Made by a program: the position numbers and the translations under genes. The notes below the pieces were generated by a model. It did not search any database. It was not told the DNA's origin and saw only the letters and a program-made list of their open reading frames with translations. A stretch of 64,000 nucleotides of DNA from Prostheceraeus crozeri (lineage: Eukaryota; Platyhelminthes; Polycladida; Euryleptidae): the NCBI GenBank assembly GCA_907163375.1, contig CAJQUW010001446.1, positions 682,001 to 746,000 of the forward strand. Direction: 5' to 3'. Each line of letters begins with the position of its first letter. Position 1 is the first letter of the stretch. Positions 2,439-62,379 of this stretch are shown piece by piece.

Positions 2439-2476
2439 GGACTTTGGACTCTTGGACTCTTGGACTCTTGGATCTT
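2439..2476 (+). repeat. TTGGACTC microsatellite at PLE 5' junction
   Basis: About four to five imperfect copies of TTGGACTC run straight into the truncated reverse-transcriptase frame. The array marks the 5' end of the inserted PLE copy. It may be a preferred target or have been made during insertion. Confidence 0.7.
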
Positions 2477-3329: not shown

Positions 3330-3537
3330 ACAATATAATTAACACTGTTTTCTTAACATTTTTTTTTATTGGTTATACCATTTCAGTATTTCACACATAT
3401 ATTTTAGTTTGTTTTGGATGTATCCGTCTTTTGCGGTTGTTTTGTTTTTGTTTTTACTATTACTATCAGTATTACTTATTATTACACATATCATTACTGT
3501 ATTGATTTTAGAATGCCAGCCGCATATAAGTTTATGC

Positions 3538-3617
3538 GGGGCCCCGCCCGCCTGGGCTTGAGCGTTCAGGTAGAGGGGCCGAAACGCAACCAGGCGGGTA
3601 CCTGCTGACGACTGGCT
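3538..3617 (+). ncRNA. Structured RNA motif in PLE 3' UTR (copy A), hammerhead-like signature
   Basis: Stems seen: P1 CCCGCCTGG (3547-3555) with CCAGGCGGG (3590-3598); P2 GCGTT (3562-3566) with AACGC (3583-3587). Pseudoknot pairing K1 joins CAGGTA (3567-3572) to TACCTG (3599-3604), and K2 joins GGCCCC (3540-3545) to GGGGCC (3575-3580). The motif at 55313-55382 keeps P1, P2 and K2 by compensatory changes. Unpaired CTGACGA (3605-3611) and GAAA (3581-3584) match hammerhead ribozyme core strings, and K1 and P2 abut them as stems I and III would. The strand order is not a circular permutation of a normal hammerhead, so activity is only a hypothesis. Confidence 0.6.
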
Positions 3618-7108: not shown

Positions 7109-7167
7109 TAGTGATGATGAAACAGTTTATGCAAAAACATTTTGAAAAACATACTTCATCATCACTA
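7109..7167. repeat. Short hairpin, possible MITE remnant
   Basis: TAGTGATGATGAA and its exact inverse TTCATCATCACTA are separated by about 33 bases. Nothing else in this stretch is recognisable. Confidence 0.4.
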
Positions 7168-36154: not shown

Positions 36155-36921
36155 CATGAATGTCACTTGGTGCATAATGAACATGTAAAACAATAGTTCA
36201 ACCAATGAAGCAATTCAGTGCTTTTTCTAAAAGAACTGACCTTGTGATAAATCGAATTAGAAATTTCGCAATCTGTCTGTCGTAGAAGCATAGAGAAGAA
36301 GATTTATCAAAAGGAAAGTTTTTAAGTGCCCTATAATATATATCATCTAAATATGAATAATATCAAATCAACTAATCAGCTATCCTTTCAAAAGATGAAC
36401 ATACAAAAAATGGAATTGTAGAAATTACACAATCTTTCTGTTTTAAGAGGATAAAGAGGAGGATTTATTGAAAGGAGAGGATTGAAATGTGACATCCTGT
36501 TAATTCCAGTAATGTCAGTTCAACTAATGAAGCAATTCATGAATGTCACTTGGTGCATAATGAACATGTAAAACAATAGTTCAACCAATGAAGCAATTCA
36601 GTGCTTTTTCTAAAAGAACTGACCTTGTGATAAATCGAATTAGAAATTTCGCAATCTGTCTGTCGTAGAAGCATAGAGAAGAAGATTTATCAAAAGGAAA
36701 GTTTTTAAGTGCCCTATAATATATATCATCTAAATATGAATAATATCAAATCAACTAATCAGCTATCCTTTCAAAAGATGAACATACAAAAAATGGAATT
36801 GTAGAAATTACACAATCTTTCTGTTTTAAGAGGATAAAGAGGAGGATTTATTGAAAGGAGAGCATTGAAATGTGACATCCTGTTAATTCCAGTAATGTCA
36901 GTTCAACTAATGAAGCAATTC
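36155..36921. repeat. Two-copy 383-bp tandem duplication (higher-order repeat)
   Basis: CATGAATGTCACTTGGTGCA begins copies at 36155 and 36538. By eye the copies differ at about one base, so the duplication is recent. Each unit is itself two old, diverged half-units: GAATTAGAAATTTCGCAATC and GAATTGTAGAAATTACACAA start matching stretches about 190 bases apart. Confidence 0.85.
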
Positions 36922-38080
36922 AATGAAGCAATTCCCGACATCTGCATCATCCGCGTGATGGCAAAAACCATTGTTTCAATATTTTCAAAAAGTGATGTTT
37001 CTTTCGTGTTTTAAGGTAATTGTAAGTTAATATTATTATCATTTTGGTCTTCTCTTGTAGTTTTTTATTTCATGACCCTTTCGTTCAATTTTTTATGTAT
37101 TCCATTGGATGTAAAGTAGCCTCGAGCAAATTTAGATAACTACGAATATTTGACTGTCTTCCTCAAAGTTGAGTTGACTCTAATTATAACTTGCACCTTT
37201 TCATCAATCTTGAGCCGAACATGTGTGTTGATAAATTTGCTGGTGCCTTTTTCTGTAACTTGAAATTCATTAGTTTCTTCTTCAATTTTTTATACTTCTT
37301 TTCATTCTTTGGTTAGCATGATAGATAATCTTTTTGTTCAATATTGCAAATTTATTAAATTAAATCACAAAATGATAATAGACCATTCGATTTTCATTTT
37401 TCAGGCATGCAGGTTAGTGTGCGGTTGATGATCTGCGGTTTTAGCAGGTGATTTCGATTAATCCGAATATTATCACTTGGTTAGTTAATTAGGCTTTGTA
37501 AATCTACTTAGTCATGCAAGATGTGGCGCTTGACAACTTTCCATACAGAAATGGAACGTGGGAGTATGACTGAGTCATCACAGACTCGTTGCATCATCTG
37601 GATAGCAACAAAGTTCTGTGAAAGTCACCTCACAATCCACGCTTGCGGCATATTCGAATGCATTAGTTTAGCAGGTCGGATGATGAGATGACATTAGGTC
37701 AACGGAAAGCAGAGGAAAGGAGAGATGCGTGACAGTAATGGGAAAATCCACGATGATCGGTAGGCCAAACTGGCCAATGTAAATGGCCCATCATGGAGGT
37801 CACGGTTAAAAGACGCACGTAGCCTACTGCTCTCATTGCGTTTTGTGTATATCTCTATAATGAAGGAGTGATACTACTTAATGGGAGTAAAAAAACCTGC
37901 TTACAAAATGGCCTGTTAAAAGAAGGTTTATGATGTAATGCATCAGCAAAATACTAATAACAAACAGCATTTCTCAGTTATGACTTAAGTAAACAGTACT
38001 TTGGAGCAACACCAAAGGGGGTGGGAGAGATTTAAAATGATAAAGCAAGAAATCATTTTGAGAAATAGTTTTGGCAAGAA
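36922..38080. other. No feature recognised
   Basis: Apart from an echo of the preceding repeat (AATGAAGCAATTC at 36921-36934) I see no gene or repeat. Confidence 0.45.
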
Positions 38081-38446
38081 ATAAGAGCGAAAATTTTCCC
38101 AACGTTTCGCTCAGTCTATTTAGCATTCTCAAGGGTACAGATTAAAATAAAGGACTGAATTACGTACCTGAATTCATTACAAAGTCCGTAAGTCATAGAG
38201 TGGAAGGTGGACTAAAGGGAAACAGGTAAACTGCTACCTGCTGTGCAAATACAAGATTTGCTTACATATATTTCCTTATAGACTAGTTTTCACTCGGATT
38301 TTCAAATGTTTTGATTAATTCATGTACAGTTCGTAATTAACTCGTGAATTTTTGTTTAAACCAACACATTTCAGAAGGAATAGAGTTGCCTATGTAAATT
38401 AAGAAAAACATGTAGACATCCCGAGTGCTTTCGAGGCTTCTAGTCC
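38081..38446 (-). mobile_element. Inverted copy of a PLE 3' end (partial pLTR)
   Basis: ACATGTAGACATCCCGAGTG...CTTTCGAGGC (38409-38437) and TTTTCCCAACGTTTCGCTC (38092-38110) match, in inverse orientation, 52192-52235 and 52300-52318 downstream of the PLE endonuclease at 52 kb. About 200 bases in the middle have no partner on the right. Inverted terminal copies beside 5'-truncated ORFs are a known PLE habit. Only the short gap before the TGTGTC duplication separates this arm from the 13-kb element inserted in the same PLE. Confidence 0.6.
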
Positions 38447-38447
38447 G

Positions 38448-38453
38448 TGTGTC
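38448..38453. repeat. 6-bp target-site duplication, left (TGTGTC)
   Basis: TGTGTC abuts the AG tip of the 13-kb element and recurs at 51658-51663. A 6-bp duplication is characteristic of Polinton/Maverick insertion. Confidence 0.75.
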
Positions 38454-39548
38454 AGTAGTGAGTCCGTGGCAGACGGAAGTGCAAAATGTGAAATGATGAG
38501 TCATCATGCTGACTCAGCCCCCCCCCTCTGGAAGGAAGGAGGTGAGGGAGACGTCCAAGGATGTGTTGGGAGGGATGGGTCCAAGAGAAGGAAACCGTTC
38601 CTTTCCCCCCTCTGGAACGAAGGAAGGAAGGAGGAGTTCTCCTGTGAGGCAAGGGTAGGAATCTCCGAAAAACGACAGAGCTAGAAAAAGGTGGGTTTTG
38701 GACGTTTTGGAATGAGAAAGTCCGTACTTCGGGCAGAAGGAGGGCTCGGATGGACAAACGGAGGGCAGATTCGGATTCTACGTGAAATTTTGGGTTAAGG
38801 AGGTTGTTTCCAGCTCAATGGGAGAGAAAAGATTTTGAGGACGTCCCCCCCCCTCGGCAGCGTTTCTTCCAACTTTGGTTCTAGAGATCGTAGAAAGTCG
38901 TGCAATAGCTCGTTTGAAAGCTAACAGTGAGACAAATGCAGTGGACGAATTGGCGTGTCTCTAAGTTTGTTTGTTTGTTGAGGTGTGAGAGTGACTTTAA
39001 GATTTTTGACCATCACCGAAAAACGACAGAGTTAGAATTTTTATGAAAATGGCTCTAGCGGGTGAACGAAGCATCGTATGAGAAAACTGAGACCAGATTT
39101 GGCATCAGCGTGCTATTCTGCATCTAGAGGGTGAGTTTCAAGAAAATCGGAGAGTAGAAATTTTCTGCACACTTGGGACTTTTTCGTGAAAATGTTAAAT
39201 TGTGGCCTACTTTGGTGACGACTAACTCAGGAATGGAAGTGAATGAAGAGCTCGGTTTTCTTTTAGGGGCAAGACCGCACTTTGTTCTCTAGGATCCTAT
39301 CTTTTCAGATCTGTGGAAGGTTTCGTTTCTAACTGAGAGCATGCTTAAAATCGAATTTTTGCGCATTTTCCAAGATTTTGGAACCTTTGAAAAAACGACA
39401 GAATTTTTTCAACTCGGCTTGAATGAAAGGTGAGAGCGAGAAAACGTGACTGTCAAAATTTGAAGTCAATCGGAGCACTAGAACCGGAGAAAGAAGTGTT
39501 TAAAGTTTTGGATGATTGAGATTACGTCATCAACTGATCGCCACAAAC

Positions 39549-39556
39549 TATATAAG
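39549..39556 (+). promoter_or_regulatory. TATATAAG box, left arm
   Basis: TATATAAG followed by GTGGAGTCTCTAC, the best TATA-like site in the arm, pointing toward the element centre. The mirrored copy is at 50563-50556 on the minus strand. No ORF with a clear start follows, so function is unproven. Confidence 0.25.
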
Positions 39557-39894
39557 TGGAGTCTCTACTTGTGGGAATCAGTTCTCCTCCCGACTTGGTT
39601 GGGGTAGGTGAACTCCGGAGCTCCGATGATGGCATCGGAAATTCCAAAATCAGGTTTCCTACAACCGACTTAGAAAATTTCATTGCTGATATCAGCTAAG
39701 GCGTCAGACTTAAAGGTTAGCCAGGAGATGACCTTAGTCTCCAGGCCATAAAAGACTCCAAAACTTTAAAGGCTTGTAACTTTGCTTCTACAAGTCCTTT
39801 TGACTTGACTCAAAAAAGGTTCGATAGCTATTGATCAGACCTATATATATACAGACTACTTATAAAATTTCAAAAGTAGTAATAAATGCTGAAA

Positions 39895-40620
39895 AATTTA
39901 AATTCATTATTTTTGGAGGTTTTCTGGGGTTTTCGACCCTGCTGAAGTCAACGAAAGGATTTGTCATGATGTCTGAACCAGTCTTTACATGATACAAGCG
40001 GCTTTTCACTGAAAGCGAGCATGGTACGGAGAGTTTCGCTGTAATATTCCAATGACAGGGTGTTCCTTCGGGACGGCGGATGATGCCGTAGTGATAAGTG
40101 TGGCAAGGGAGTGTGTCATATTTTAGACCAAAACCTCTGGGGCAATTCATGTTGGGCATTTGACACAGTTCTCAACGTAGCACTTTGAACGCCAATCGGT
40201 TGAGTCTTAGCTATCTTGTCATGGGTGGCTACTAAACATCTCCATTGCAAAACGCTTGTGAATCACGGCTTGCTATCACTCTCTACGGCTTGCTATCAAG
40301 CTGGTCAAGGCAACGACTAACCAACCTCTTGTAAATAACTCCACCGGTTTTCATGTCTGGCTATCAAGTCATTGACGGTGCAAGTCACGGAGATTTTCGG
40401 TGTAATATTTCCTATCGACAGGCGTCCCTTTTGGGCGGCGATGGAATCCGCAGCGAAGAGTGCCGCATGGGATATTCGACAATTGTAATCCTTGTTAAAC
40501 CTCTCTGCGTCATGTTTGCAAGTGGTTGCCTTATCGTCTCGACGTAGTGCTCTGACCGCCAGGGTGACATTTAGCCATCTATCGAAGGTTACTTTAAAAC
40601 ATCTCCATTGCACTTGTCTC
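39895..40620. repeat. Old ~361-bp tandem duplication inside the arm
   Basis: AACATCTCCATTGCA occurs at about 40236 and 40597. GTAATATTCC..TGACAGGGTG (about 40041) and GTAATATTTCCTATCGACAGG (about 40402) mark the same spacing. The two units are strongly diverged, with mirrored copies in the right arm. Frames of 99 and 164 codons on the minus strand (39860-40159 and 40317-40811), and their mirror frames at 49953-50252 and 49301-49795, derive from this block. They share no recognisable domain and probably are not genes. Confidence 0.6.
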
Positions 40621-40820
40621 CCGACAGTTGGCCATACATGCGAGAATGAACCATGAGTTCTGCTTGCCTCTATCACCGAGGCTAAATGAAATGGAATGAA
40701 TTGGAAGGGACATCCATGCGCCACACGCAACCACAAGCTCATTTCTCTCTTCACTAGTGAACAAGCTCTTGTGAACGTAGTCAGTAAGTGCATCATGGTT
40801 TGCAAAAGCAAAGTTTAGTG

Positions 40821-41090
40821 TAGTCAAATAGTTTTACTGTGACACACGTTTGTAAAAGTAAAGTTTGATCATCGGAGTTTTATTCGTGAGTGTAGTCAGA
40901 AAGTTTATCATGTTGTACAAAAGTTTTACTGCAACACAGGTTGATGCATAGTTAGAAAGTTTGATCATGACGTTTTATGAAACACAAATGTCATAAAATG
41001 TAAGCGTTATTGTAGTTAAATAGTTTTTACCACAGCACATGTTTGTGAAAGTGAAGTTTGATCATTGAAGCTTTATGACTGACCGAACTC
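40821..41090. repeat. Degenerate AGTTTGATCATNRNAGTTTTA repeat cluster
   Basis: TAGTCAAATAGTTTTACTGT, GTTTGTAAAAGTAAAGTTTG and AGTTTGATCAT motifs recur three to four times in 270 bases, with a long unit of about 190 bases. Mirrored in the right arm near 49030-49290. Confidence 0.6.
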
Positions 41091-41469
41091 ACAACAGCAT
41101 TAGAAAGTTTTTATCCTTAGTTGAGATCCGGACTGCAGTGTGCAAAATGTTTTATGTGACAGTCTTTTCACAAATGGTGAAGTGTAAATTCAGAGAGAAT
41201 ACATCTGCTAGGTATACATCAACTTTGGATGTGAAGTAAAGCGAATCATGTTAGATGTACAGAATGAATTGAATATTACACAGCGCATGCAAGTTTTTGA
41301 CGACTTGAGCGTGTCATGAAAAAAAACAAAGTCTAAGTTTAACGTGTTGGATATTAAAAGTGAGATGGATAGGAATAAGTGTTGAATGTTTTATAAAACC
41401 AGGTAAAGTCTTGTCACAAACGTTGAGTGTGTGAGGGCTAGTTCCATTACATCTAATCAGATGGGTGAT

Positions 41470-41600
41470 AGCACAAGTCCTAAAGTCCATAATCCAAGGG
41501 TAGGGTCATCTACGGTTGGATTTAGGGATTTAGGGTTTTATATCACACGCGTTAACCGCTAGTGTAGAATACGTGAAGCACATGTTCGCTTAAAAGTCTA
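41470..41600 (+). repeat. TTTAGGG/TATA module 1 of the arm
   Basis: AAGTCCATAATCCAAGGGTA, then TTTAGGGATTTAGGGTTTTA with TATCACAC, then GTGTAGAATACGTG...GCACATG...TGTTCGCTT. The same order of blocks occurs at 43010-43135, with weaker forms at 42895-42965 and 44805-44960. It could be an iterated promoter, since each copy ends in a TTTTATAT- or TTTTGGAT-like box. Confidence 0.6.
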
Positions 41601-43009
41601 AACGCAAACGTTGAAATATGTTTTGTAGGAAGTTAAAAACATTGACATGATGTTGTGAAAGTAGAAACTTAGCGAACGTTGAAAAAAGTTTTATGAAATG
41701 TTTCTGCAGTCACTATTGTTAGCGTACCAGCTTTACTAAATGTGTTGTTTGCCTTTATCAAATTGAATTCGTGTGTAGACTATTTTGTAGATAGAGACAG
41801 ATAGTTTTAAACGTTTTTGCAGTCTGCATTAACAGCATACAAGTATACACATAACATCATGTAACGTTTCTTAAAAGAGTCGAATGCATGTGAGTTAGGA
41901 TACACTCAAAACATGTGTGAGATAAAAATCAACCTGCTAGATTAAGTGAGTACCTCACAAAAGTGTTGCATATGTTTTACGGGAAACTTGTAAAGGAGAA
42001 CTGTGTATCGAGAACGTTTACTATCATCATCGACAGATGAACATGAATGATATATTCTAACTTCAACTTTCTGACGGTCAAATGAAGTTAGTAAACATGA
42101 AGCTCTAGACTCCGCGGTGTAAAACAATATGACGAGTGACAACAACTTTATGTTGATAAAACTTTCATAGGTTGATAATTGCAGTCGCGTTTAAAGTTGA
42201 TATAAAAACCTGTAATCGCTTGATGCAATGTCTTTCGATATAGCTTTCTTTGATATGAGCCGAACCCTTGAGCTCCGCTGTGGATGCAGAGTGAAGATGG
42301 GGAAAGTCTGGCAGAGAAAGGCAAATCAATTCGCTGCCCCATCGACCTCATTCCACATCAGCTTGTGGAAAACCCTTTGTTCAGGGATATGGCGCTAGAG
42401 CATCTGGCGTTGCTGAGAACTCAGCGTCCGGAATACTTCGAGTAATCGAAGTATTTCATCGGTCCTTCCAAGGGCCCGGTCACCAATTCGTTGGAGGCCA
42501 CCGTATTAACAAAGAAAAGTTACAGACTGTGCCACACACAAACACTAGATTCAAGGATCTCTATCTTTCTTAGAAAATGAAGAAGCTCTTATTAAATTCA
42601 TCTGATGAGAAAACAACTTCATGACAAGTGTTAAACTTGTCGAACACACATCTTTAAAGTCCTAACTGCCATGAAATCATCATGTTTAAAGTTTTAAAGC
42701 CCATATGATAAGTAGCAAGGATCTATTGCAGTTACATGATGTAAAATATATACGTGTGTAGAGAGAGGATGACTCTTAGACGTGAAGTCATGAATTTTAT
42801 TTCTTCACCACCCGTCAAATGGAAATAGTAATGGTGTTGGTTACCTAGGAAGAATCATCAAAGCAAAATGTTGTATAGTAATGCAGGCAATGACAGTCAC
42901 GATTGGATTTAGAGATTTAGCGTTTTATATAACATACATCAATGATAACTGTTGTTGTAGAGTGTATACATGCATTTACTAACTTAACCATTTGTGAATG
43001 ACATAGGTA

Positions 43010-43135
43010 AATTGCTAAAGTCCATTATCTAAGGGGTAGGGTTACCTACCGTTGGATTTAGGGTTTTGGATAACACAAATTAACGATCTCTTTAAGTGTA
43101 GAATACAGGCAGCACATGATGCATATGTTCGCTTT
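43010..43135 (+). repeat. TTTAGGG/TATA module 2 of the arm
   Basis: AAGTCCATTATCTAAGGGGT, TTGGATTTAGGGTTTTGGAT and GTGTAGAATACAGGCAGCAC, ending TGTTCGCTTTA. A diverged copy of 41470-41600 in the same orientation, mirrored in the right arm at about 45886-46012. Confidence 0.6.
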
Positions 43136-43448
43136 ATAAAATTACTTTGAACGCAAGACTCAATTTCATGATGAAAAGACAGATTTCATATCGTTGATGA
43201 GAGATAGTTACATGCTCATTATGTTATACACTTTACATTTGATGCAGTCAGCTGAAAGGTGATTGATGCATGTTCAATAGAAGAGTTAAAATATATAATA
43301 ACCAACGCATGAAAGTTTCTTGTTATCCAAGCTAGGAATATATGAACATCATTCATCAGTAAGTGTTGTATTTTAACATCCATGTTTTGTACAAGGTAGG
43401 ATTCGTCGGACGTTTAATGATGAATGGTTGGATAAATTCATGAAGCTA

Positions 43449-43742
43449 GTGTAAGGATATGGTATTTCAGTTTATGAAATACTATTCCTTATTCGACGAA
43501 TCTAACGTTGTACCTCCACTGCCGACTCCTCACTTTCCACCAGGTCCTCACTCCACGTCTCTCCTTCCTCTTCAATGTCACTCATTCCTTCCCCTTCACT
43601 GACACTCATTCCTTCTTCGTCACGTTCCTTTTCACTCGGAGATTCCTCTGGATCCATCATCGAGGATTCGGACGGAGGTACAACGTTAGATTCGTCGAAT
43701 AAGGAATAGTATTTCATAAACTGAAATACCATATCCTTACAC
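43449..43742. repeat. Perfect 69-bp inverted repeat at inner end of left arm
   Basis: 43449-43517 is the exact inverse of 43674-43742, with a 156-bp loop. It starts two bases after the left arm ends, so the arm's inner breakpoint coincides with a second fold-back. This suggests template switching during replication of the element. Confidence 0.9.
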
Positions 43743-43834
43743 TCGTCGGAGAGAAAAAAAAGGATGCACAGCCTTTCAAATGTCTTGTTCGCGCAATCAA
43801 ATTGCTTTAGACTATCGGTTGGTAGTTGTAACAC
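43502..43834 (-). CDS. Acidic low-complexity ORF in element centre
   Basis: About 110 codons, the only unmirrored open frame of note in the 2-kb centre. The N-terminal part (FDCANKTFERLCILFFLSD, MVFQFMKYYSLFDESN) is ordinary. The rest is very acidic and Ser/Glu-rich (EESPSEKERDEEGM, EGEGMSDIEEEGETW, SEDLVESEES). It has no ATG at its upstream end; the first in-frame Met is in MVFQFMKYYS. Its tail is encoded by the perfect 69-bp inverted repeat, so the gene was probably broken by the fold-back that made the left arm. I do not recognise the family. It may be the last remnant of a Polinton gene or a chance frame. Confidence 0.35.
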   Translation of the reverse strand: MLQLPTDSLKQFDCANKTFERLCILFFLSDECKDMVFQFMKYYSLFDESNVVPPSESSMMDPEESPSEKERDEEGMSVSEGEGMSDIEEEGETWSEDLVESEESAVEVQR

Positions 43835-46805
43835 GACTGTGTCAACCGTCGTTCATTTTCATGCTTGATGTGCTGACCTGAATGGTTATCAGAGATTTCC
43901 CGTCATCGTCTTCCCTATTGACTGAAGTTGAATGGAAACTGTCGCCAACACGCTGACAGCATATAGGATTGTGAGCAATCACCGACGCCTATTGTCCTGC
44001 AAACCTATGCCCAGGTCTGTCATGAAACACTGTCGGCGTGCTGTCGCTAGCAACACATTTTGAATTGACAATATTGTAGCATCTGCACAAAACATTTGTA
44101 AACATAGTGCTCAGGTTAGATGTAGGTCTACAGTTACTACCAATGAATTGAACTAGCTTGCATTGAAATGAATGTATGGGATCTAGTGTGAAGGTAGACA
44201 CTGTTAAGAGGTTTTACAATTGTATCACGTCATGTTTACGGATGCAACAGTCTTTTTCAGTGTATAAGATAGAACACATGACATAGTTGTTGTATGTAAA
44301 ATAGAAGTTTATATTCGATGAAATCAAAGGTAGAGATTGCAAAGTTTAATGAATAGGTAGTGTAGCCATCTGTATGAAAAAGTTTCATCGTTAGAAGTAA
44401 GATTAGTGACACATCGAGATATCATCATACAGCATTAGGACTGTTGATTTAATCATGTAAAAATTAGATTGAAGTAACTTGTTGATGCAGGCAAGACACT
44501 GAATGCGAAAGTAGGAATAACATATCATGGAGTATGCATTGAAACCCACACAGCATTTTTGTTGCACTAACAATTCAGTTCAATGTGAGCTAGTCTTCTA
44601 TCACTCATTTCATACGACATAACTTTTCACTTTAGTTATTCCTACAATGTTACTACTATGTGTTCTAAACTTTTTGAGATTGCTTTCACTTCTATCTCAC
44701 ACTTTCTTCATCATATAAACAAATGAATGAAATTGATGATGCATTACCTGAATAAACTCATTGAGTCACATTCTACACGAACAGATAATGCTAACATGGA
44801 TCATATAAAACGCTAAGTCTTGTCATAAGGTTGACTATGCTATGGACTTAGTGATTTATCTATGTAACTTACACTTTTAAAACGCTAAATCCCTAAATCT
44901 CAACACAGGGATACCTATCCTATGGATTTAGGGATTTAGGAGTTTTGATGCATAATTTAGTAAATTTATGTCCCTGTCAGTATACGACTTTTAACATTCA
45001 TGTAACTCGCTTGAACTAAATTCACTTTGATGATGGATGACAAAATGCATGCAGTCAATTAGTAGAGTTTTCACTTGTCTGCATTTGTGAAGACGTTTTC
45101 CTATCACTCCTCTTACTGATTTTCTTGTTCACTGTAAATCATATCAGCAGATCATTTAACGATTCCAATCTGTCGAACAACATTCATATCAACACTACAA
45201 ACGTCGTAGAATCTTAAACCCCTGTATGACCCTGTATTTCACTTAGATTTTAGTTACTCTTTGGTGATTGTCTACCTAGAGTTTCAAGATGCCTCACATT
45301 GTAAAAGTCATACTGGTGAGATTTATAGTTCTATCCCCATATTAATTACAGCAGACGTATAAGTAAACACATGTGAGACAAGACATTAATTACATCGCTG
45401 ATTCTTATCCATCATCATTACCTTATGTTTAGCATGATATACATAAGTCTTTATTGTCACACATTTTTTCTCACTCTTGCTTTTCGTTTCAATACTTGGT
45501 TTGTGTGTTACTCAAAGCTTCATGAATTTATCCAACCATTCATCATTAAACGTCCGACGAATCCTACCTTGTACAAAACATGGATGTTAAAATACAACAC
45601 TTACTGATGAATGATGTTCATATATTCCTAGCTTGGATAACAAGAAACTTTCATGCGTTGACTATTATATACTTTCCTAATCAACTCCTTACACACTTAT
45701 TATTTCAATCACTAAGATACATGCAATGTATTCAACTCTTTTATTGAACATGCATCAATCACCTTTCAGCTGACTGCATCAAATGTAAAGTGTATAACAT
45801 AATGAGCATATAACTATCTCTCATCAACGATATGAAATCTGTCTTTTCATCATGAAATTGAGTCTTGCGTTCAAAGTAATTTTATAAAGCGAACATATGC
45901 ATCATGTGCTGCCTGCATTCTACACTAAAAGAGATCGTTAATTTGTGTTATCCAAAACCCTAAATCCAACGGTAGGTAACCCTACCCCTTAGATAATGGA
46001 CTTTAGCAATTTACCTATGTCATTCACAAATGGTTAAGTTAGTAAATGCATGTATACACTCTACAACAACAGTTATCATTGATGTATGTTATATAAAACG
46101 CTAAATCTCTAAATCCAATCGTGACTGTCATTGCCTGCATTACTATACAACATTTTGCTTTGATGATTCTTCCTAGGTAACCAACACCATTACTATTTCC
46201 ATTTGACGGGTGGTGAAGAAATAAAATTCATGACTTCACGTCTAAGAGTCATCCTCTCTCTACACACGTATATATTTTACATCATGTAACTGCAATAGAT
46301 CCTTGCTACTTATCATATGGGCTTTAAAACTTTAAACATGATGATTTCATGGCAGTTAGGACTTTAAAGATGTGTGTTCGACAAGTTTAACACTTGTCAT
46401 GAAGTTGTTTTCTCATCAGATGAATTTAATAAGAGCTTCTTCATTTTCTAAGAAAGATAGGGATCCTTGAATCTAGTGTTTGTGTGTGGCACAGTCTGTA
46501 ACTTTTCTTTGTTAATACGGTGGCCTCCAACGAATTGGTGACCGGGCCCTTGGAAGGACCGATGAAATACTTCGATTACTCGAAGTATTCCGGACGCTGA
46601 GTTCTCAGCAACGCCAGATGCTCTAGCGCCATATCCCTGAACAAAGGGTTTTCCACAAGCTCATGTGGAATGAGGTCGATGGGGCAGCGAATTGATTTGC
46701 CTTTCTCTGCCAGACTTTCCCCATCTTCACTCTGCATCCACAGCGGAGCTCAAGGGTTCGGCTCATATCAAAGAAAGCTATATCGAACGACATTGCATCA
46801 AGCGA

Positions 46806-47896
46806 CTTGTATTTAATGAATGAGTGTGAACGTCTCCCTTCTATTTCTCCAAAATTTTTGTAACTGGCTAGCAAGGCATTGAATGCTTGAACAAATCGGT
46901 GGTGTCCATGCTTTAGCAGCAAATGGTTTCTTACACGCGCGGAACTGTGAGGGTGCACAGTAACGAATTGTCAACTTGAGAATCCTTTCAGTCGCTTACG
47001 ATGATATCTCCTGTGCGATAGCAATGAGCTGTGTGGGAATCAGCTGGGTCTGAGGGCCTCAGATGACGATAAGTTCTTGCATCCTTGCTCGTTGGACAGA
47101 TGAGATAGAAATTCAATGTGTATGGGGGGCAATGCGACAGACGGGTGCCAGAGAGAGATAGAGAGAGCGCTATCATTGATCTTTGTGTTCTTGAAACATT
47201 CTATCTGCTGAGGAGGGCACATGTTTAACGCGACAGACGATCGCCAACCGGCAGCGCTGTCATTCATCTTTGTGTTCTTGGTACACTCTATCTGCTGAGG
47301 TGGCAGCGCGACAAACAGACGACAGAAAGCGCTACTCGTGAACCTTTGTGTGCACATGAGGGTTTGAAGAGTTATGACATCTGTTTCACTGATAGGTTTT
47401 ATGATAGACGTTCTAGCTGCTTTTGAATGGCAGCCTGTTGAATATTGCAAGCATTGTTAAATGTCAATCAGTGTGTCATTTTCACATCGTCTGCATTCGC
47501 TCAGAAAATCATTTGATACAGGTTTCAATGTTGATTCTATTATCAACTTGCAAAAAACGCACGATTAGTTTAGAAATGAGACACGTGTTGATTCTCTTAA
47601 TTCGTCATGCACATGAAAAGCAAACTTACACATTTGATTCTAACCTTTCTTTACAATACTCATGGACAGTCCTAATGTTCTAATGTAATGTCCACTGTTT
47701 CATACCAATGAAATAGTTCCACTCTCGTCAACACAGACTTGTAACTCAAATATTTTCCTTTGATAATTCAATGACATTACACGCTTTTCTGTTTCCTACT
47801 GATGAGCGTGTAATGTACCTCTACAAAGACTTGTTCATTTTGTTAGTTGAATGTACGAGTCACAACGTTGAAATGCATGTACAACTTATGAGTTTC
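46806..47896 (-). other. 1,091-bp block present only in the right arm
   Basis: Flanked by TCGCTTGATGCAATG and CCTGTA on the minus strand, which are joined directly in the left arm with about one base of microhomology. A deletion from the left arm is simpler than an insertion, as there are no element-like ends or target duplication. It contains two to three imperfect 75-87-bp tandem units at 47167-47340, each with CTTTGTGTTCTTG and TCTATCTGCTGAGG. The minus frames at 46623-46958 and 47040-47450 run in or into it without a recognisable domain. Confidence 0.75.
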
Positions 47897-50555
47897 TACA
47901 GGTTTTTATATCAACTTTAAACGCGACTGCAATTATCAACCTATGAAAGTTTTATCAACATAAAGTTGTTGTCACTCGTCATGTTGTTTTACACCGCGGA
48001 GTCTAGAGCTTCATGTTTACTAATTTCATTTGACCGTCAGAAAGTTGAAGTTAGAATATATCATTCATGTTCATCTGTCGATGATGATAGTAAACGTTCT
48101 CGATACACAGTTCTCCTTTACAAGTTTCCCGTAAAACATATGCAACACTTTTGTGAGGTACTCACTTAATCTAGCAGGTTGATTTTTATCTCACACATGT
48201 TTTGAGTGTATCCTAACTCACATGCATTCGACTCTTTTAAGAAACGTTACATGATGTTATGTGTATACTTGTATGCTGTTAATGCAGACTGCAAAAACGT
48301 TTAACACTATCTGTCTCTATCTACAAAATAGTCTACACACGAATTCAATTTGATAAAGGCAAACAACACATTTAGTAAAGCTGGTACGCTAACAATAGTG
48401 ACTGCAGAAACATTTCATAAAACTTTTTTCAACGTTCGCTAAGTTTCTACTTTCACAACATCATGTCAATGTTTTTAACTTCCTACAAAACATATTTCAA
48501 CGTTTGCGTTTAGACTTTTAAGCGAACATGTGCTTCACGTATTCTACACTAGCGGTTAACGCGTGTGATATAAAACCCTAAATCCCTAAATCCAACCGTA
48601 GATGACCCTACCCTTGGATTATGGACTTTAGGACTTGTGCTATCACCCACTTGATTAGATGTAATGGAACTAGCCCTCACACACTCAACGTTTGTGACAA
48701 GACTTTACCTGGTTTTATAAAACATTCAACACTTATTCCTATCCATCTCACTTTTAATATCCAACATGTTAAACTTAGACTTTGGTTTTTTTTCATGACA
48801 CGCTCAAGTCGTCAAAAACTTGCATGCGCTGTGTAATATTCAATTCATTCTGTACATCTAACATGATTCGCTTTACTTCACATCCAAAGTTGATGTATAC
48901 CTAGCAGATGTATTCACTCTGAATTTACACTTCACCATTTGTGAAAAGACTGTCACATAAAACATTTTGCACACTGCAGTCCGGATCTCAACTAAGGATA
49001 AAAACTTTCTAATGCTGTTGTGAGTTCGGTCAGTCATAAAGCTTCAATGATCAAACTTCACTTTCACAAACATGTGTTGTGGTAAAAACTATTTAACTAC
49101 AATAACGCTTACATTTTATGACATTTGTGTTTCATAAAACGTCATGATCAAACTTTCTAACTATGCATCAACCTGTGTTGCAGTAAAACTTTTGTACAAC
49201 ATGATAAACTTTCTGACTACACTCACGAATAAAACTCCGATGATAAAACTTTACTTTTACAAACGTGTGTCACAGTAAAACTATTTGACTACACTAAACT
49301 TTGCTTTTGCAAACCATGATGCACTTACTGACTACGTTCACAAGAGCTTGTTCACTAGTGAAGAGAGAAATGAGCTTGTGGTTGCGTGTGGCGCATGGAT
49401 GTCCCTTCCAATTCATTCCATTTCATTTAGCCTCGGTGATAGTGGCAAGCAGAACTCATGGTTCATTCTCGCATGTATGGCCAACTGTCGGGAGACAAGT
49501 GCAATGGAGATGTTTTAAAGTAACCTTCGATAGATGGCTAAATGTCACCCTGGCGGTCAGAGCACTACGTCGAGACGATAAGGCAACCACTTGCAAACAT
49601 GACGCAGAGAGGTTTAACAAGGATTACAATTGTCGAATATCCCATGCGGCACTCTTCGCTTCGGATTCCATCGCCGCCCAAAAGGGACGCCTGTCGATAG
49701 GAAGTATTACACCGAAAATCTCCGTGACTTGCACCGTCAATGACTTGATAGCCAGACATGAAAACCGGTGGAGTTATTTACAAGAGGTTGGTTAGTCGTT
49801 GCCTTGACCAGCTTGATAGCAAGCCGTAGAGAGTGATAGCAAGTCGTGATTCACAAGCGTTTTGCAATGGAGATGTTTAGTAGCCACCCATGACAAGATA
49901 GCTAAGACTCAACCGATTGGCGTTCAAAGTGCTACGTTGAGAACTGTGTCAAATGCCCAACATGAATTGCCCCAAAGGTTTCGGTCTAAAATATGACACA
50001 CTCCCTTGCCACACTTATCACTACGGCATCATCCGCCGTCCCGAAGGAACACCCTGTCATTGGAATATTACAGCGAAACTCTCCGTACCATGCTCGCTTT
50101 CAGTGAAAAGCCGCTTGTATCATGTAAAGACTGGTTCAGATATCATGACAAATCCTTTCGTTGACTTCAGCAGGGTCGAAAACCCCAGAAAACCTCCAAA
50201 AATAATGAATTTAAATTTTTCAGCATTTATTACTACTTATGAAATTTTATAAGTAGTCTGTATATATATAGGTCTGATCAATAGCTATCGAACCTTTTTT
50301 GAGTCAAGTCAAAAGGACTTGTAGAAGCAAAGTTACAAGCCTTTAAAGTTTTGGAGTCTTTTATGGCCTGGAGACTAAGGTCATCTCCTGGCTAACCTTT
50401 AAGTCTGACGCCTTAGCTGATATCAGCAATGAAATTTTCTAAGTCGGTTGTAGGAAACCTGATTTTGGAATTTCCGATGCCATCATCGGAGCTCCGGAGT
50501 TCACCTACCCCAACCAAGTCGGTAGGAGAACTGATTCCCACAAGTAGAGACTCCA

Positions 50556-50563
50556 CTTATATA
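50556..50563 (-). promoter_or_regulatory. TATATAAG box, right arm
   Basis: Mirror of 39549-39556, also pointing toward the centre. Function unproven. Confidence 0.25.
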
Positions 50564-51657
50564 GTTTGTGGCGATCAGTTGATGACGTAATCTCAATCAT
50601 CCAAAACTTTAAACACTTCTTTCTCCGGTTCTAGTGCTCCGATTGACTTCAAATTTTGACAGTCACGTTTTCTCGCTCTCACCTTTCATTCAAGCCGAGT
50701 TGAAAAAATTCTGTCGTTTTTTCAAAGGTTCCAAAATCTTGGAAAATGCGCAAAAATTCGATTTTAAGCATGCTCTCATTTAGAAACGAAACCTTCCACA
50801 GATCTGAAAAGATAGGATCCTAGAGAACAAAGTGCGGTCTTGCCCCTAAAAGAAAACCGAGCTCTTCATTCACTTCCATTCCTGAGTTAGTCGTCACCAA
50901 AGTAGGCCACAATTTAACATTTTCACAAAAAAGTCCCAAGTGTGCAGAAAATTTCTACTCTCCGATTTACTTGAAACTCACCCTCTAGATGCAGAATAGC
51001 ACGCTGATGCCAAATCTGGTCTCAGTTTTCTCATACGATGCTTCGTTCACCCGCTAGAGCCATTTTCATAAAAATTCTAACTCTGTCGTTTTTCGGTGAT
51101 GGTCAAAAATCTTAAAGTCACTCTCACACCTCAACAAACAAACAAACTTAGAGACACGCCAATTCGTCCACTGCATTTGTCTCACTGTTAGCTTTCAAAC
51201 GAGCTATTGCACGACTTTCTACGATCTCTAGAACCAAAGTTGGAAGAAACGCTGCCGAGGGGGGGGGACGTCCTCAAAATCTTTTCTCTCCCATTGAGCT
51301 GGAAACAACCTCCTTAACCCAAAATTTCACGTAGAATCCGAATCTGCCCTCCGTTTGTCCATCCGAGCCCTCCTTCTGCCCGAAGTACGGACTTTCTCAT
51401 TCCAAAACGTCCAAAACCCACCTTTTTCTAGCTCTGTCGTTTTTCGGAGATTCCTACCCTTGCCTCACAGGAGAACTCCTCCTTCCTTCCTTCGTTCCAT
51501 AGGGGGGAAAGGAACGGTTTCCTTCTCTTGGACCCATCCCTCCCAACACATCCTTGGACGTCTCTCTCACCTCCTTCCTTCCAGAGGGGGGGGCTGAGTC
51601 AGCATGATGACTCATCATTTCACATTTTGCACTTCCGTCTGCCACGGACTCACTACT

Positions 51658-51663
51658 TGTGTC
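51658..51663. repeat. 6-bp target-site duplication, right (TGTGTC)
   Basis: Identical to 38448-38453. PLE sequence resumes immediately after it. Confidence 0.75.
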
Positions 51664-52004: not shown

Positions 52005-52345
52005 ATCGTTCACCACCCTTTGTGTTCATAAAGAGTTTGTATATAGCTTATTGTTGCCCTGGCAGTCTTGATTGTCAATATCTTTTGCGCTGTCTTTCCG
52101 TCCGTTTATGTCTTGAGTTTTATTCATTGCATCTAACTTAGTACGCATTTCACTGTGATGCTACTTTTACTCTGCCGCATCGCATGATTAGAGGCCTCGA
52201 AAGCGCTCGCGATGTCTACATGTTTTAATAAATTTACATTGGCGACTGAAATTCCATCTGAAATTTATTTAAACCTTTGAGAACGCCCGACAGATTATGA
52301 ACGAAACGTTGGGGAAATTTTCGATCTTACTTCTTACAATAAAAG
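52005..52345 (+). mobile_element. PLE 3' UTR / terminal repeat (fragment E)
   Basis: Non-coding tail of the GIY-YIG PLE. 52192-52235 and 52260-52345 recur inverted at 38404-38446 and 38081-38165. TTTGAGAACGCC...GAACGAAACGTTGGGG (about 52277-52314) resembles the TTGARAATG...CGAAACGTTGGG type motif of PLE ends, perhaps a decayed hammerhead ribozyme core. Confidence 0.55.
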
Positions 52346-55863: not shown

Positions 55864-58386
55864 TCATTGAAATTCACAGAGTGAAGTGAATTGTCGAGCC
55901 GAGAAAAGACCATATTTGTGAAGCGATTCATTATGCCTTGTGAGAGCCTTTTCTGTGTAACTCATCAAGTCATGCTGAGAATAACCTCTAGATTTCATGA
56001 TATTTAGTGTCTTGTTAGTTTTGTGTACAGCGTCTTGTAACTTCGAGCATATTCTACAATATCTGACTACCTGCGACGCGAATACATGAAGGGCCATCTG
56101 TAATGGGATCATGCTCTCCGGAAAAGTCAGTTGCACCACAGAGAAAGAGAAGTCATCTACCTTGTGATATACTGAAGTTCTCAAGCTGTTCTGTGAGATT
56201 TGTATTTTCACATCAAGGTAAACTACCTCTTTATTGTTATCACCATTTCTCTCCGCCAACAAGTCAGGTGGATAAATTCTTTGAATCAACGAATTAAAGT
56301 GTTTATAATTGACAACACATATATCGTCTATGTATCTTGATGTAGGTGATAACAAGCGTGCTAAATGATATTTCTTAGTTTTTATCAAATTTTGCATAAA
56401 AACATATTCGCAGTGTAAGAGGAATAGGTCAGCTAGGAGTGGACTAGAATTTCCTCCCATTGGAATGCCTTTAATCTGCCTGAAAACTAAATTACCGAAT
56501 GTGACGTAGGTCTGTGATAATAGGAAATGTATGGCTTCTTTTAACTTCTGTTTATCAAAACAGTGATAACCACTATATTTTTTCATTGAGCAAAAGGACT
56601 TATCATATCCAATGCAAATAAATTTTCTATTTGAGGAATTAAACACCAAATCCATAATAGCGAATATGTGATCTTCAATCAATTTTTGATCAAGATTCGT
56701 ATATAAGGTTGAAAAATCGAACACTTGCAATGAATGAACTTGTGTCGAATTTAATCTGTGTAGAAATTCTTGTGTGGACTTTATACTCCAGAAGCAATCG
56801 AAACCGCTGTTTCTCTTAATTGCCATACAATATCTCTGAAAATTGTCACGCAAAATACTTAAGGCTGAATTTACTTTGATGGAAAGCTTTTTCGATGTGC
56901 ATTGTCGTGCTCCTGCTATGAATCTAAATTTGCATGGAGTTTTGTGAAATTTTGGAATCCAATATAATTTTGGTAATTTTCTGTCTTTTTCACAGACAGA
57001 TAGTTTAAACTCGCTTTTCATAATTGTTGTATGTTGCTCAATTACATTCTGCGCTAAAATTTGCTCTGGACCATAGGTATCATTACCCGATATGTTCGAC
57101 GTGGAAATATCAATTCCCAACTCGGCTAAGAGAATTTGGAGATAAAACTTTTTGCAAATAAAGGCATAATTATTAGATGCTTTATCAACTGGCGTAATTA
57201 TGACGTCATTCTGCAATTCTTTCAGATTTTTACCCATTTTGGCATTAATCTTGTGTCGATTATTGTGTGCGCGAAATCTATTCGAGGATTTCTTGGCAAG
57301 ATATATTCGATCTTTAATCAGTGCCATGATTCTTGATTTCCACGCTGAGAATAAAGTAGCCTCAAGCCTCTCTTTCTTACTTATTTTTGTAATATGCTCA
57401 TCTAATGAATTACTAATTTGAGTTGTTATGGCACTCCAACTAAGGCTTTTGGGGATTCTGTGTTTGGTACCAAAACTGAAGAGTTGACGTAAGTCTTCAT
57501 CATCCACAATATCCAGATCACCCGTTATTACGTGACCATAATGTGGGTAAACAAAAGATTGCCTCTTGCTACATGAGCATGGATTGTTCATGATGTGCAT
57601 CACATCCTGAAACTTTAGGTTATTCAAAAAACGCCCATAATTGCAAAACTTCAATGCAGTGGGTTTATCTAATTTATAGAATATTTTCGGTGGATAACGT
57701 TCTTGAATTGTGCTTGGAATTAGCTTGCACACACTGTGATCGCAGAATATAGACATGAGATTGAGTGAGTCTATTGTCTGAGATTCGAACGGGATAATTA
57801 TGGTTGCTCGTTCTTTTACATTTTTGTTCTCCGAGTCTAGGTTAAGTTTATTTTGAATGTATGCTGTTAGTACAAATGTCATCATGTTTGCCTCATCCCT
57901 TGTCTTGCCTAGAATGGCTCTTAGCATAGTTTTAGGGAGAGATTTTAGATGATGATAAAACCTTGACATCCTACGCGTCTCAAAAGAATCTTGTAATTCT
58001 TGATAGGTATTGTCAAGTTCCATAATACCTGAGCTTTTTCTACCCGATTTTCTTATTCCATGACTCCTTTTTCGTCTGCTAATCGGATAACTAAAAAATT
58101 GATCATTGGATATGGACTGCTGAGATACACATCCACCTCCCAAAACTCTATCATTCAAACCCAAGGGGTATAAGGTATTGAGCATCTTGATATGCATGTC
58201 TTCCTTGCGGTTGAGCTCTCTGTTTATCTCTTCCGGTGATATGTATATATTGTCATCAACATGATCAATAATTTGCAATTCAACATCAGTCCAAGAATGA
58301 TGATCTTGCTTAAAGTGATTGCTAAGATATATATATGCATATATACATATATACATTTCATATATACATATATGAGGTATTTTCAA
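55864..58386 (-). CDS. Penelope-like element ORF, Naiad/Chlamys-type, near full length (copy B)
   Basis: One uninterrupted frame of 840 codons. Residues 23-85 are the end of a GIY-YIG nuclease preceding the RT: HSWTDVELQII, then INRELNRKEDMHIKMLNTLY and PLGLND, with the catalytic-type Glu. Residues 269-300 hold a C-x-C and GHVITGDLDIV block. RT motifs follow: VIITPVDKAS (395-404), LPKLYWIPKFHK (471-482), FRFIAG (488-493), FDFSTLYTNLDQ (556-567, catalytic Asp), GIPMGGNSSPL (640-650) and RYIDDIC (684-690, catalytic Asp pair). It ends SARQFTSLCEF with no C-terminal endonuclease. An endonuclease before the RT is the arrangement known for Naiad and Chlamys PLEs. The frame opens with TTG and no ATG, and the first 20 residues are encoded by a TATACATATA microsatellite, so the N-terminal half of GIY-YIG is missing. 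Product if expressed: an RT that copies its own RNA. Confidence 0.88.
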   Translation of the reverse strand: MKIPHICIYEMYICIYAYIYLSNHFKQDHHSWTDVELQIIDHVDDNIYISPEEINRELNRKEDMHIKMLNTLYPLGLNDRVLGGGCVSQQSISNDQFFSYPISRRKRSHGIRKSGRKSSGIMELDNTYQELQDSFETRRMSRFYHHLKSLPKTMLRAILGKTRDEANMMTFVLTAYIQNKLNLDSENKNVKERATIIIPFESQTIDSLNLMSIFCDHSVCKLIPSTIQERYPPKIFYKLDKPTALKFCNYGRFLNNLKFQDVMHIMNNPCSCSKRQSFVYPHYGHVITGDLDIVDDEDLRQLFSFGTKHRIPKSLSWSAITTQISNSLDEHITKISKKERLEATLFSAWKSRIMALIKDRIYLAKKSSNRFRAHNNRHKINAKMGKNLKELQNDVIITPVDKASNNYAFICKKFYLQILLAELGIDISTSNISGNDTYGPEQILAQNVIEQHTTIMKSEFKLSVCEKDRKLPKLYWIPKFHKTPCKFRFIAGARQCTSKKLSIKVNSALSILRDNFQRYCMAIKRNSGFDCFWSIKSTQEFLHRLNSTQVHSLQVFDFSTLYTNLDQKLIEDHIFAIMDLVFNSSNRKFICIGYDKSFCSMKKYSGYHCFDKQKLKEAIHFLLSQTYVTFGNLVFRQIKGIPMGGNSSPLLADLFLLHCEYVFMQNLIKTKKYHLARLLSPTSRYIDDICVVNYKHFNSLIQRIYPPDLLAERNGDNNKEVVYLDVKIQISQNSLRTSVYHKVDDFSFSVVQLTFPESMIPLQMALHVFASQVVRYCRICSKLQDAVHKTNKTLNIMKSRGYSQHDLMSYTEKALTRHNESLHKYGLFSARQFTSLCEFQ
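58329..58376. repeat. TATACATATA microsatellite at PLE 5' end
   Basis: An imperfect TA/CA-rich array forms the first codons of the PLE frame and marks its 5' truncation or insertion point. Confidence 0.7.
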
Positions 58387-58720
58387 AATATGAACATTAT
58401 GACCGTCTGATTACTCAGCATTAGTCACATGTTCGTCAGTCCAACAGAAATATTTGTGTTTTAATTTATCTAGCATAAATTCTCCATGGTTATACGAGTT
58501 CATACTTTCTGAAGCATCAATGAATAGTGCATTAATTTCGGTCCTTGAACAGTACAAAGAAACACTGCTGCAGCTTTGAAATTAAATCGTTTAGAAGCAT
58601 CGTCTGTCCAACAGATTGACAATGCGTCTGTCCAACAGATATCTTCATAAGTTGTTTTGACACTACAGATCGAAGCATGAGCACTTTCTATGTCACATCT
58701 CCATATTTTAAGCAAAGATG
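58387..58720 (-). other. Sequence upstream of PLE B with repeated CWTD-coding units
   Basis: TGTTGGACAGAC-type units occur three times (minus strand, near 58626, 58600 and 58437), reading ICWTDALSICWTDDAS and FCWTDEH. They echo HSWTD in the GIY-YIG end at residues 30-34. A TAA stop at about 58410 separates them from the PLE frame. They might be scrambled remains of the missing endonuclease half or an unrelated repeat. Confidence 0.35.
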
Positions 58721-60900: not shown

Positions 60901-61308
60901 CGTAGAGTATGACTTTTCGTTGGTCTGAGATTGCTGTTTTCGGAGGATTTTTATATCGGCTTGATCCGTGTTGCCTTGTCTATGTCATCATAACAATATT
61001 TACTTCCATGATCGTCTCATATTTTCGTGGTTCCTGGCTTGGTGGAGTTTTGTCGCTAAGCAGTAAGCTCTGTTCACTGGCCAGGTTGTAGAAAGCAGTC
61101 TGCGGTTTCCGTCGATTAACACGTGATTTTGACGTGAAGGGCATCAGATTTTCTCGCGTATTCAATTAAGTGCATCTAATTCGTGTGCAAGTGCTAGTGT
61201 CGTGCTGGTGTAGATGTTATAGTGCTGGACTCCAGCATTGGATAGAATCTGTCTGCTGGTTCAATTCCACTGCTTACATGTTGGTATTTTTTCGCTGATT
61301 AAGTGCCC

Positions 61309-62379
61309 ATGGACTCCAAAAGAAAATCAATCTCAGGTCACTGCTGCGACGAGCCTTGTGTCATTAATGACAGGTCCAAAGATCGTGATAAACGGTTGGT
61401 TGTGTGTAACAGTCCGGGTTGCTCGAAACATTTCCATGCTGGCTGTTCGGGTCATTCTAAGACAAGCGATAAAGAACTAAAGAACGCTTTCTTCGTGTGT
61501 TTGAGATGTGAGAACTTTTTGACTTACAGTGCGGACATTGCTCGCAAATCTTTCATGTCCGAGCTTGAAAACAAGTTAAATGCTCTCAAATTATCTATAT
61601 ATGAAAGTATCGATAGCAAAATCAAGTCGGTGCGAGAAGAAATGAAGAATCATACGCAGTCTATAAGGAAAGAGTTGAATGAAAAGATATCCAAAATTGA
61701 GTCCCGGACAATAATGGATGATGGGAGTATTCGGCAAGTTCTATTCGAGAAAGAAAGGCAAATCGAACGTCTTACATCAGATGTAGAATCATTGAGGAGC
61801 TCTGTCCGTGAAGATATGAGTGGCATTAAGGACACATTCTGCGCTGTTCAGAGGCATATTTTCTCAATCGAAATGGAAAAACGAAAGGAATCCTTCATTG
61901 TGAGCAATTTTCCGGAGAAAGTTACCGACGTATGTGGTACTCCAGTATCCAACTGTCGAGATGCCATAGATGTGATTGCGCGAGAATTGGGCATTGTGAA
62001 TCAAGCCGGATATATTCGAGACGTTCACCGCATCGGGAGGGAGCGAAATGATGGTAGACCGAGATTGATATTGGTTAAGTCCAACGAGAATACCACCAGG
62101 CAATTTCTGACGAAGTCTAGGCTACTCAAGCAAGCTGTTTCTCCCTTGAACAAGGTATTCATTCAAGAAGACTTGCCTGTTGAAGTGAATAGGAAAATCG
62201 CAGAAATGAGGAAAAAGGCTTATGAATTGCGTACTCAAAGCCCAGGATCAACTGCGTTCGTCAAAAATAAAAAACTTCTGTATAATAGTGCCGTTATTGA
62301 CTCAGTGGAGCAAAATTTTTATATTGCGATTTCACCGCTTCTTGTAAAATCAGAGAGAGATTACCGAGCATATTTCTGA
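61309..62379 (+). CDS. CR1-like LINE ORF1 protein
   Basis: 356 codons from an ATG at 61309 with a good context (GCCCATGG); two upstream in-frame codons (GTG CCC) are not needed. Residues about 12-67 form a PHD-like zinc finger: HCCDEPC, VVCNSPGCSKHFHAGC and FFVCLRC. Residues about 70-190 are a long charged coiled coil (ELENKLNALKLSIYESIDSK and EKERQIERLTSDVESLR). Residues about 195-330 are the CR1/L2-type RRM-like and C-terminal part, with FIVSNFPE, DVHRIGRE, RPRLILVKS, RQFLTKSRLLK and VFIQEDLP. Such ORF1 proteins coat the element RNA and act as nucleic-acid chaperones. It is intact, unlike the ORF2 that follows with almost no gap. The 5' UTR start was not found; 60900-61308 is probably part of it. 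Confidence 0.85.
   Translation: MDSKRKSISGHCCDEPCVINDRSKDRDKRLVVCNSPGCSKHFHAGCSGHSKTSDKELKNAFFVCLRCENFLTYSADIARKSFMSELENKLNALKLSIYESIDSKIKSVREEMKNHTQSIRKELNEKISKIESRTIMDDGSIRQVLFEKERQIERLTSDVESLRSSVREDMSGIKDTFCAVQRHIFSIEMEKRKESFIVSNFPEKVTDVCGTPVSNCRDAIDVIARELGIVNQAGYIRDVHRIGRERNDGRPRLILVKSNENTTRQFLTKSRLLKQAVSPLNKVFIQEDLPVEVNRKIAEMRKKAYELRTQSPGSTAFVKNKKLLYNSAVIDSVEQNFYIAISPLLVKSERDYRAYF

Follow-up and report, generated by a model that had tools for sequence, protein, structure and literature searches.

A transposed, nearly gene-less giant palindrome of a Polinton family in the flatworm Prostheceraeus crozeri

We analysed a stretch of 64,000 nucleotides from the polyclad flatworm Prostheceraeus crozeri (assembly GCA_907163375.1, contig CAJQUW010001446.1, positions 682,001 to 746,000), hereafter the window, in which positions 38454-51657 form a real giant palindrome of 13,204 bp. 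The element begins with AGTAGTGAGTCC at 38454 and is closed by the inverse of this sequence at 51657, and a 6-bp target-site duplication, TGTGTC, flanks it on both sides (38448-38453 and 51658-51663); an earlier interpretation made from the DNA letters only (the sequence-only reading) had named these AG...CT tips and this duplication, and both are present. The left tip (38454-38473, plus strand), AGTAGTGAGTCCGTGGCAGA, carries the family end motif (AGT)2, and the right tip (51638-51657, minus strand) is its inverse. The left arm (38454-43531) aligns with the right arm (43662-51657) over 5069 columns, with 5033 matches and 36 mismatches, around a central spacer of about 130 bp (43532-43661). The identity of 98-99% given for the arms in the sequence-only reading stands, at 99.3%, whereas the stated coverage of 84% does not: strictly paired sequence makes up about 77% of the element (2 x 5069 / 13204).

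All large differences between the two arms are one-sided, the right arm carrying sequence that the left arm lacks. The three segments concerned are 43744-45515 (1772 bp), approximately 45676-45733 (58 bp) and 46807-47896 (1090 bp). Inspected by eye, their ends showed neither terminal repeats nor a target-site duplication, and a sister element, C972, has in each of its arms counterparts of the tested parts of the 1090-bp segment and of the inner-arm part of the 1772-bp segment; we therefore interpret the three segments as losses from the left arm and reject insertion into the right. They were also rejected as introns, with the left arm as a retrocopy, as no splice sites were seen at their ends, and an apparent splice acceptor at the centre of the palindrome is a deletion edge relative to C972. 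The 1772-bp segment consists of inner arm (44538-45515, equivalent to arm positions 6143-7120) and of spacer that appears ancestral (43744-44537), so that the left arm has lost this part of the arm together with most of the ancestral spacer. From 38454 to 43447 (plus strand) the left arm pairs with the right, and the right arm from 45516 to 51657 reads from tip to centre on the minus strand. The last 84 bp of the left arm (43448-43531, plus strand) are an inverted copy, at 95% identity, of the sequence just across the spacer (43662-43743), and probably represent the scar of a snap-back (templated) repair. The central 321 bases have a fold z-score of -18, with none of 100 shuffles equally stable, and Rfam returned no match in the window at the gathering threshold. 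Just outside the element, 38368-38445 and 52186-52264 form an inverted pair at 84% identity, perhaps two copies of another repeat; an extension of the palindrome into these flanks was rejected because the pair is asymmetric about the element.

The window's own assembly (2.05 Gb, 14,165 contigs) was searched with the first 300 bp of the element as a tip probe, for which the best 40 of 3645 candidates were scored, making the resulting counts lower bounds. We found at least 53 matching places, including the two in the window. The inner side was inspected for 27 of the 38 scored tips outside the window, to at most 10 kb each and less at contig ends; 14 of these tips belong to eight elements with both ends, giving nine with the window, and the other 13 are unpaired. 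Perfect 6-bp duplications flank eight of the nine elements (TGTGTC, GAGAAC, TCCACC, TCTGTT, TCTATA, ACAATT, AACGCT and GATTCA), and the ninth has GGCATC/GCCATC, equal at five of six bases. All nine differ from one another, which is the outcome that the sequence-only reading had proposed to look for. One pair, with GATTCA (C4877/C11754), lies on two contigs and was paired partly by the duplication itself, and is thus not independent; the ends of another, with AACGCT (C3128), are 51.4 kb apart. As each relative with both ends has its own 6-bp duplication, the window element is a transposed element, and it belongs to a multi-copy family. The tip AGTAGTGA is found in the window and in 18 of 20 tip rows, the other two being L024 and L025, and the 20-base tip had no match in viral contigs. 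L024 and L025 have the same flank and are 99% alike over 4.8 kb; they are probably allelic haplotigs, in which case the assembly contains some loci in duplicate.

Long-read assembly is known to go wrong at palindromes, and the presence of one locus as two haplotigs indicates that this assembly is incompletely collapsed. We nevertheless consider it extremely improbable that the second arm is an artefact of a fold-back chimeric read or a mis-joined haplotype, given that different flanks carry matching 6-bp duplications, that the 36 mismatches are scattered, that the losses are one-sided, and that three more giant palindromes each have their own duplication and their own divergence.

The inner arm of the window element recurs in these three, C972 (14.0 kb), C2612 (19.3 kb) and C2298 (17.3 kb). 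In C972 the arms, which are 99.5% identical in their inner 1835 bp and 98.7% identical across 3.7 kb, enclose a 1.9-kb spacer, to part of which the window spacer is homologous. An arm boundary near position 7120 (right-arm coordinate) is found in both arms of C972 and in one arm each of C2612 and C2298, the other arm of which has lost the boundary part. As this boundary recurs in all three, the sister copies point to an ancestral design in which arms of some 7.1 kb enclosed a 1.9-kb spacer that contained a single open reading frame (ORF) of 144 amino acids (aa); the window copy is, by this comparison, a shortened form of that design. This replaces the view that the arms were 5-6 kb by origin, as the sequence-only reading had it; an ancestral arm of 8 kb was likewise dropped, as all three copies put the boundary at 7120. 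A further element, C507 (8.0 kb, with 1.86-kb repeats), looks like a shortened derivative. Ends, too, seem to have been exchanged between elements. The outer end of C2298 has been replaced in both arms, where an apparent insertion is partly family sequence, its first 180-260 bp or so recurring at eight other loci, and the divergent left end of C972 suggests the same; the tips deviate in both elements (C972 left, AGTAATGA; C2298 left, AGTAGTAA, and right, AGCAGTAA). The left arm of C2612 contains a 2.8-kb insertion, LINE-like by eye.

A second probe, taken from the inner arm (window 46300-46650), gave 40 matches at 94-100% identity on 31 contigs, these being the best 40 of 710 candidates. Among them, head-to-head pairs occur on seven of the 31 contigs, including the window's own, in the orientation that a palindrome predicts; six are spaced at 2.6-8.7 kb and one at 33.6 kb. 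Same-direction pairs occur on two contigs.

The gene-free state claimed for the element holds in that Pfam returned no families in the six frames of 43502-51657, but not entirely, as the spacer holds the broken end of the 144-aa ORF. This ORF, acidic in the middle, is intact in C972 (L028:2511-2942, minus strand), is broken by a stop and by shifts in C2612, and in the window (43511-43756, minus strand) has lost its start and first part by deletion. Its sole database relative at E <= 0.01 is a 151-aa protein (65% over 87%) encoded on an 844-bp ENA metagenome contig. In a weak test of coding, 20 bins of the window element were compared with seven loci; the synonymous share was 0.1-0.37 in most frames, and one frame reached at least 0.42 in six of the 20 bins (61 differences in 48458-48857, and 33, 30, 18, 14 and 12 in the others), the bin of the spacer ORF among them. 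This weakly suggests that the window arms are non-coding, and coding arms are unsupported, though by a test of limited power. Among other family members, C2612 has a 170-aa ORF in both arms, and the left arm of C2298 has a 339-aa ORF, coiled-coil-like by eye, in a stretch common to both arms.

Vertebrate Mavericks have an (AGT)2//(ACT)2 end motif with 6-bp duplications, according to PMC8097293, and the window tips belong to this motif class. Among the copies with such tips, C3128 encodes a type-B DNA polymerase (DNA_pol_B_2, PF03175, 4e-16; PHROG DNA polymerase, 2e-12) with 794 database relatives, the best 120 of which include proteins of Oculina, Montipora (coral), Araneus (spider) and Schistocerca (locust), as well as two from bins labelled bacterial. 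C11778 has a match to PF03175 that falls below the cut-off (1.9e-4), and the minus strand of its half L013, when scanned, showed zinc fingers and a weak match to endonuclease VII, with no polymerase; ORF pieces of C10636 resemble the C3128 polymerase by eye, and the one piece sent to Pfam gave no polymerase match. Because AGTAGT ends have been published as a Maverick motif and a type-B DNA polymerase is encoded by a relative that has ends of this kind, our analysis supports the window element as a non-autonomous Polinton derivative and not an autonomous member. The sequence-only reading had reached the same assignment; it had also held that a lack of other copies, or tips unrelated to any Polinton, would speak against it, and the searches found copies and tips of Polinton type.

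We also considered whether this could be a foldback-type element from a different superfamily of DNA transposons (P/Galileo, MULE and others) that only looks like a Polinton. Galileo typically has chimeric ends and terminal repeats that are long and variable (PMC3573991), and C4877, a copy with family tips, holds a DDE_Tnp_4 transposase ORF that is possibly nested; given 6-bp duplications in place of the 7 bp of Galileo and the P superfamily, the AGTAGT tips, and the type-B polymerase of a similarly tipped copy, we regard this as very unlikely. The transposase ORF (1e-24) lies at L020:3473-4009 on the plus strand. A TATA-binding-protein gene (PF00352) is found in three family copies (L013:1552-2091, plus strand, 1.4e-21; L016:98-673, minus strand, 8.5e-21; L033:700-1199, minus strand, 2.5e-11), the match falling in two stretches in two of the three. 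The best solved-structure matches of L016 are the TATA-binding proteins 1mp9 and 2z8u, which we take to be archaeal.

To compare arms within and between elements, we used ten segments from arm position 1010 on, keeping a segment if the match covered at least 80%. Identity within elements is 98.7-100% (window, C972, C507 and C10636), in contrast to 80.7-97.6% between elements, and the suggestion that the arms were made alike by copying is therefore upheld (about 99% within elements against 81-98% between). The two arms of C2612 match at 99.4-100% in four segments of their outer part and at 86-90% in three of their inner part. In outer-arm trees, both arms of each of four elements are joined at 98-100% support, whereas in the inner-arm tree those of the window and C972 pair at 100 and the left arm of C2612 groups with C507 (91%) and not with its own right arm. 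This suggests that the palindrome predates the split of the copies and that symmetry was restored later and separately, although the inner tree would look the same if C2612 were a chimera of two elements. The divergence between the C2612 arms is 2.5-3.4% on the tip side, falls to 0.23% over the next 2.2 kb (2198 columns) and then changes abruptly to 10.8% in the inner part. As arms are alike within elements and unlike between them, and as C2612 steps from 3% to 0.2% to 11%, these alignments show arm-to-arm copying inside single elements, in tracts that vary in length. Across the family, terminal repeats are about 0.65 to 7.1 kb long, and shorter ones are also alike: 98.8% over 2785 bp in C10636, 99.5% over 1184 bp in C4877/C11754 and 98.7% over 519 bp in C11778, with C3128 lower (95.6% over 660 bp). 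One end of C10636 resembles the window arm at 91% over arm positions 197-3591 and at only 82% over the first 583.

Such likeness could also be maintained by ordinary chromosomal gene conversion between the arms of an inserted Polinton derivative, as between the halves of sex-chromosome palindromes, with no transposition intermediate. The distribution of mismatches bears on this rival, and was examined in aligned pieces of at least 300 columns and more than 90% identity; a C2298 piece (L035 5353-6242; 98-99%, then 82-88% at the overlap with the next piece) and the C972 end piece at 84% were left out. Mismatches are even along the 5 kb of the window arms (variance/mean 0.86, P = 0.65), as expected after a single whole-arm event, and also in C10636, C4877/C11754 and the inner C972 piece (variance/mean 0.89-1.07); pieces a and b of C2298 are intermediate (1.46 and 1.83, P = 0.16 and 0.10). 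This evenness, the likeness of the shorter repeats (C3128 excepted) and the persistence of unerased one-sided differences, namely the 1090-, 58- and 1772-bp segments of the window and the 2.8-kb insertion in C2612, argue against gene conversion. In its favour are the young internal tract of C2612, which has older sequence on its tip side and much older sequence on its inner side, and the clustering of mismatches in C507, in one of the two pieces of C972 and in one of the three of C2298; moreover, the authors of the Galileo study suggest that extended terminal repeats arise by conversion or ectopic repair (PMC3573991). As the sole explanation we consider gene conversion unlikely, but it is a serious rival that fits C2612 better, and both processes may act. 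Protein-primed replication, suggested as a cause in the sequence-only reading, is no more than a candidate; the C2612 arms contain stretches of at least three ages that chromosomal gene conversion explains equally well.

Our preferred reading, to which we assign a probability of roughly 0.7, is that the window element is a non-autonomous, multi-copy Polinton derivative in which terminal inverted repeats have grown inward to a short spacer, and which would be mobilised in trans and have its arms copied in a self-annealed intermediate. A racket-like single-stranded intermediate has been proposed for Polintons. Gene-bearing relatives would mobilise the element through common tips, and copying would take place in an extrachromosomal intermediate with the arms annealed to each other (a hairpin or 'racket'). 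The annealed arms would form one long duplex in which the 3' arm is rebuilt on the 5' arm as template; a rebuilt stretch within the repeat would homogenise the arms, and one that started beyond the repeat would lengthen it. Once inserted, the arms would decay independently, and in the window copy the left arm would later have lost three stretches, one of them probably sealed by the 84-bp snap-back copy. More tentatively, and with less than even odds, Polinton transposition in general may pass through a self-annealed hairpin, the repeats ratcheting inward until a near-complete palindrome is left as a gene-less satellite that parasitises gene-bearing Polintons, its symmetry reset at each move.

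Several observations weigh against the preferred reading. The youngest tract of C2612 is internal, which simple tip-inward rebuilding does not predict and which weakens strict tip-inward copying, and mismatches are clustered in the other C972 piece (variance/mean 3.6, P < 0.001), in C2298 piece c (3.1, P = 0.002) and in C507 (2.3, P = 0.018). The left outer 0.6 kb or so of C972 is a different end type. None of C972, C2612 and C2298 appears as a pair among the best 40 of 710 inner-arm matches, and the six new head-to-head loci there are candidate palindromes defined by their probe matches. No integrase of retroviral type was detected in the window element, in L012 and L033 (both strands), in L013 and L025 (minus strand only) or in selected ORFs, and no ATPase or capsid domains in the window element or the scanned gene-bearing stretches; L025 has a Peptidase_C48 match just over the cut-off (23.4 vs 20.7 bits). 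As the genes of the gene-bearing copies inspected are also in broken pieces, a working helper is only putative.

Elsewhere in the window, two reverse transcriptase ORFs (55867-58410, minus strand, and 2409-3326, plus strand) have relatives with GIY-YIG and RVT domains, and presumably belong to the Penelope-like class. One matches a JGI protein at 100% identity over 97%, and the other matches P0002, also from JGI, at 99.3%; hence the source animal or a close relative is probably present in a JGI metagenome. The region 61303-63901 (plus strand) contains ORFs that by eye look like ORF1 of a LINE, including a PHD-like finger, and, after it, pieces of an endonuclease and a reverse transcriptase; two of these ORFs gave only weak, unrelated matches in Pfam. 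At 36155-36927, a 383-bp unit is tandemly duplicated near-exactly (99%).

To our knowledge, the self-copying of a Polinton has never been watched in a cell. In this family, arm divergence can be read tract by tract beside copies with repeats of 0.65-2.8 kb, so that copying between arms has left a natural record against which the proposed hairpin intermediate can be tested. The family also hints at how a large DNA transposon may turn into a satellite with almost no genes and yet not be reduced to a miniature element, and surveys keyed to core genes or short terminal repeats may miss such elements.

Among known systems, foldback elements (FB, Tetris and others) are similar in that most of the element is inverted repeat, but the arms here are not tandem arrays, as Tandem Repeats Finder reports within the element only a short array in the spacer (43562-43623). 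The palindromic defective or 'symmetric recombinant' genomes of adenovirus show that protein-primed linear genomes can yield inverted duplications with little coding content; those are viral molecules in cells, whereas here we have an integrated multi-copy family. In the open-licence literature, where absence is weak evidence, we found, among the titles and abstract openings listed, no description of non-autonomous or palindromic Polintons or Mavericks. The expansion of Polinton inverted repeats is stated to have been reported already (PMC3573991). The same source describes 'two recombinant TIR' copies of Galileo (P superfamily), non-autonomous elements with repeats that grew by recruiting internal sequence, are 98-100% alike within a copy and have chimeric ends, all of which recall the present family; Galileo differs in its 7-bp duplications, its P-type transposase and repeats of at most about 1.26 kb, against 6 bp and up to 7.1 kb here. 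With Polintons and Mavericks, which encode a cysteine protease, an FtsK-like ATPase and a capsid (PMC4028283), the family shares the 6-bp duplication, the (AGT)2//(ACT)2 ends, a size of about 13-20 kb and, in one similarly tipped relative, a gene for a type-B DNA polymerase. Its palindromes differ in lacking the core genes and in being palindromic over nearly the whole element, with arms of about 5-7.1 kb compared with terminal inverted repeats of 46-1447 bp in 134 intact vertebrate Mavericks (PMC8097293). Because the terminal repeats of family members span about 0.65 to 7.1 kb, the new element type proposed in the sequence-only reading is too strong a claim; the window element is a real, transposed, multi-copy and nearly gene-less giant-palindrome form of a Polinton family, and an extreme variant of a Polinton.

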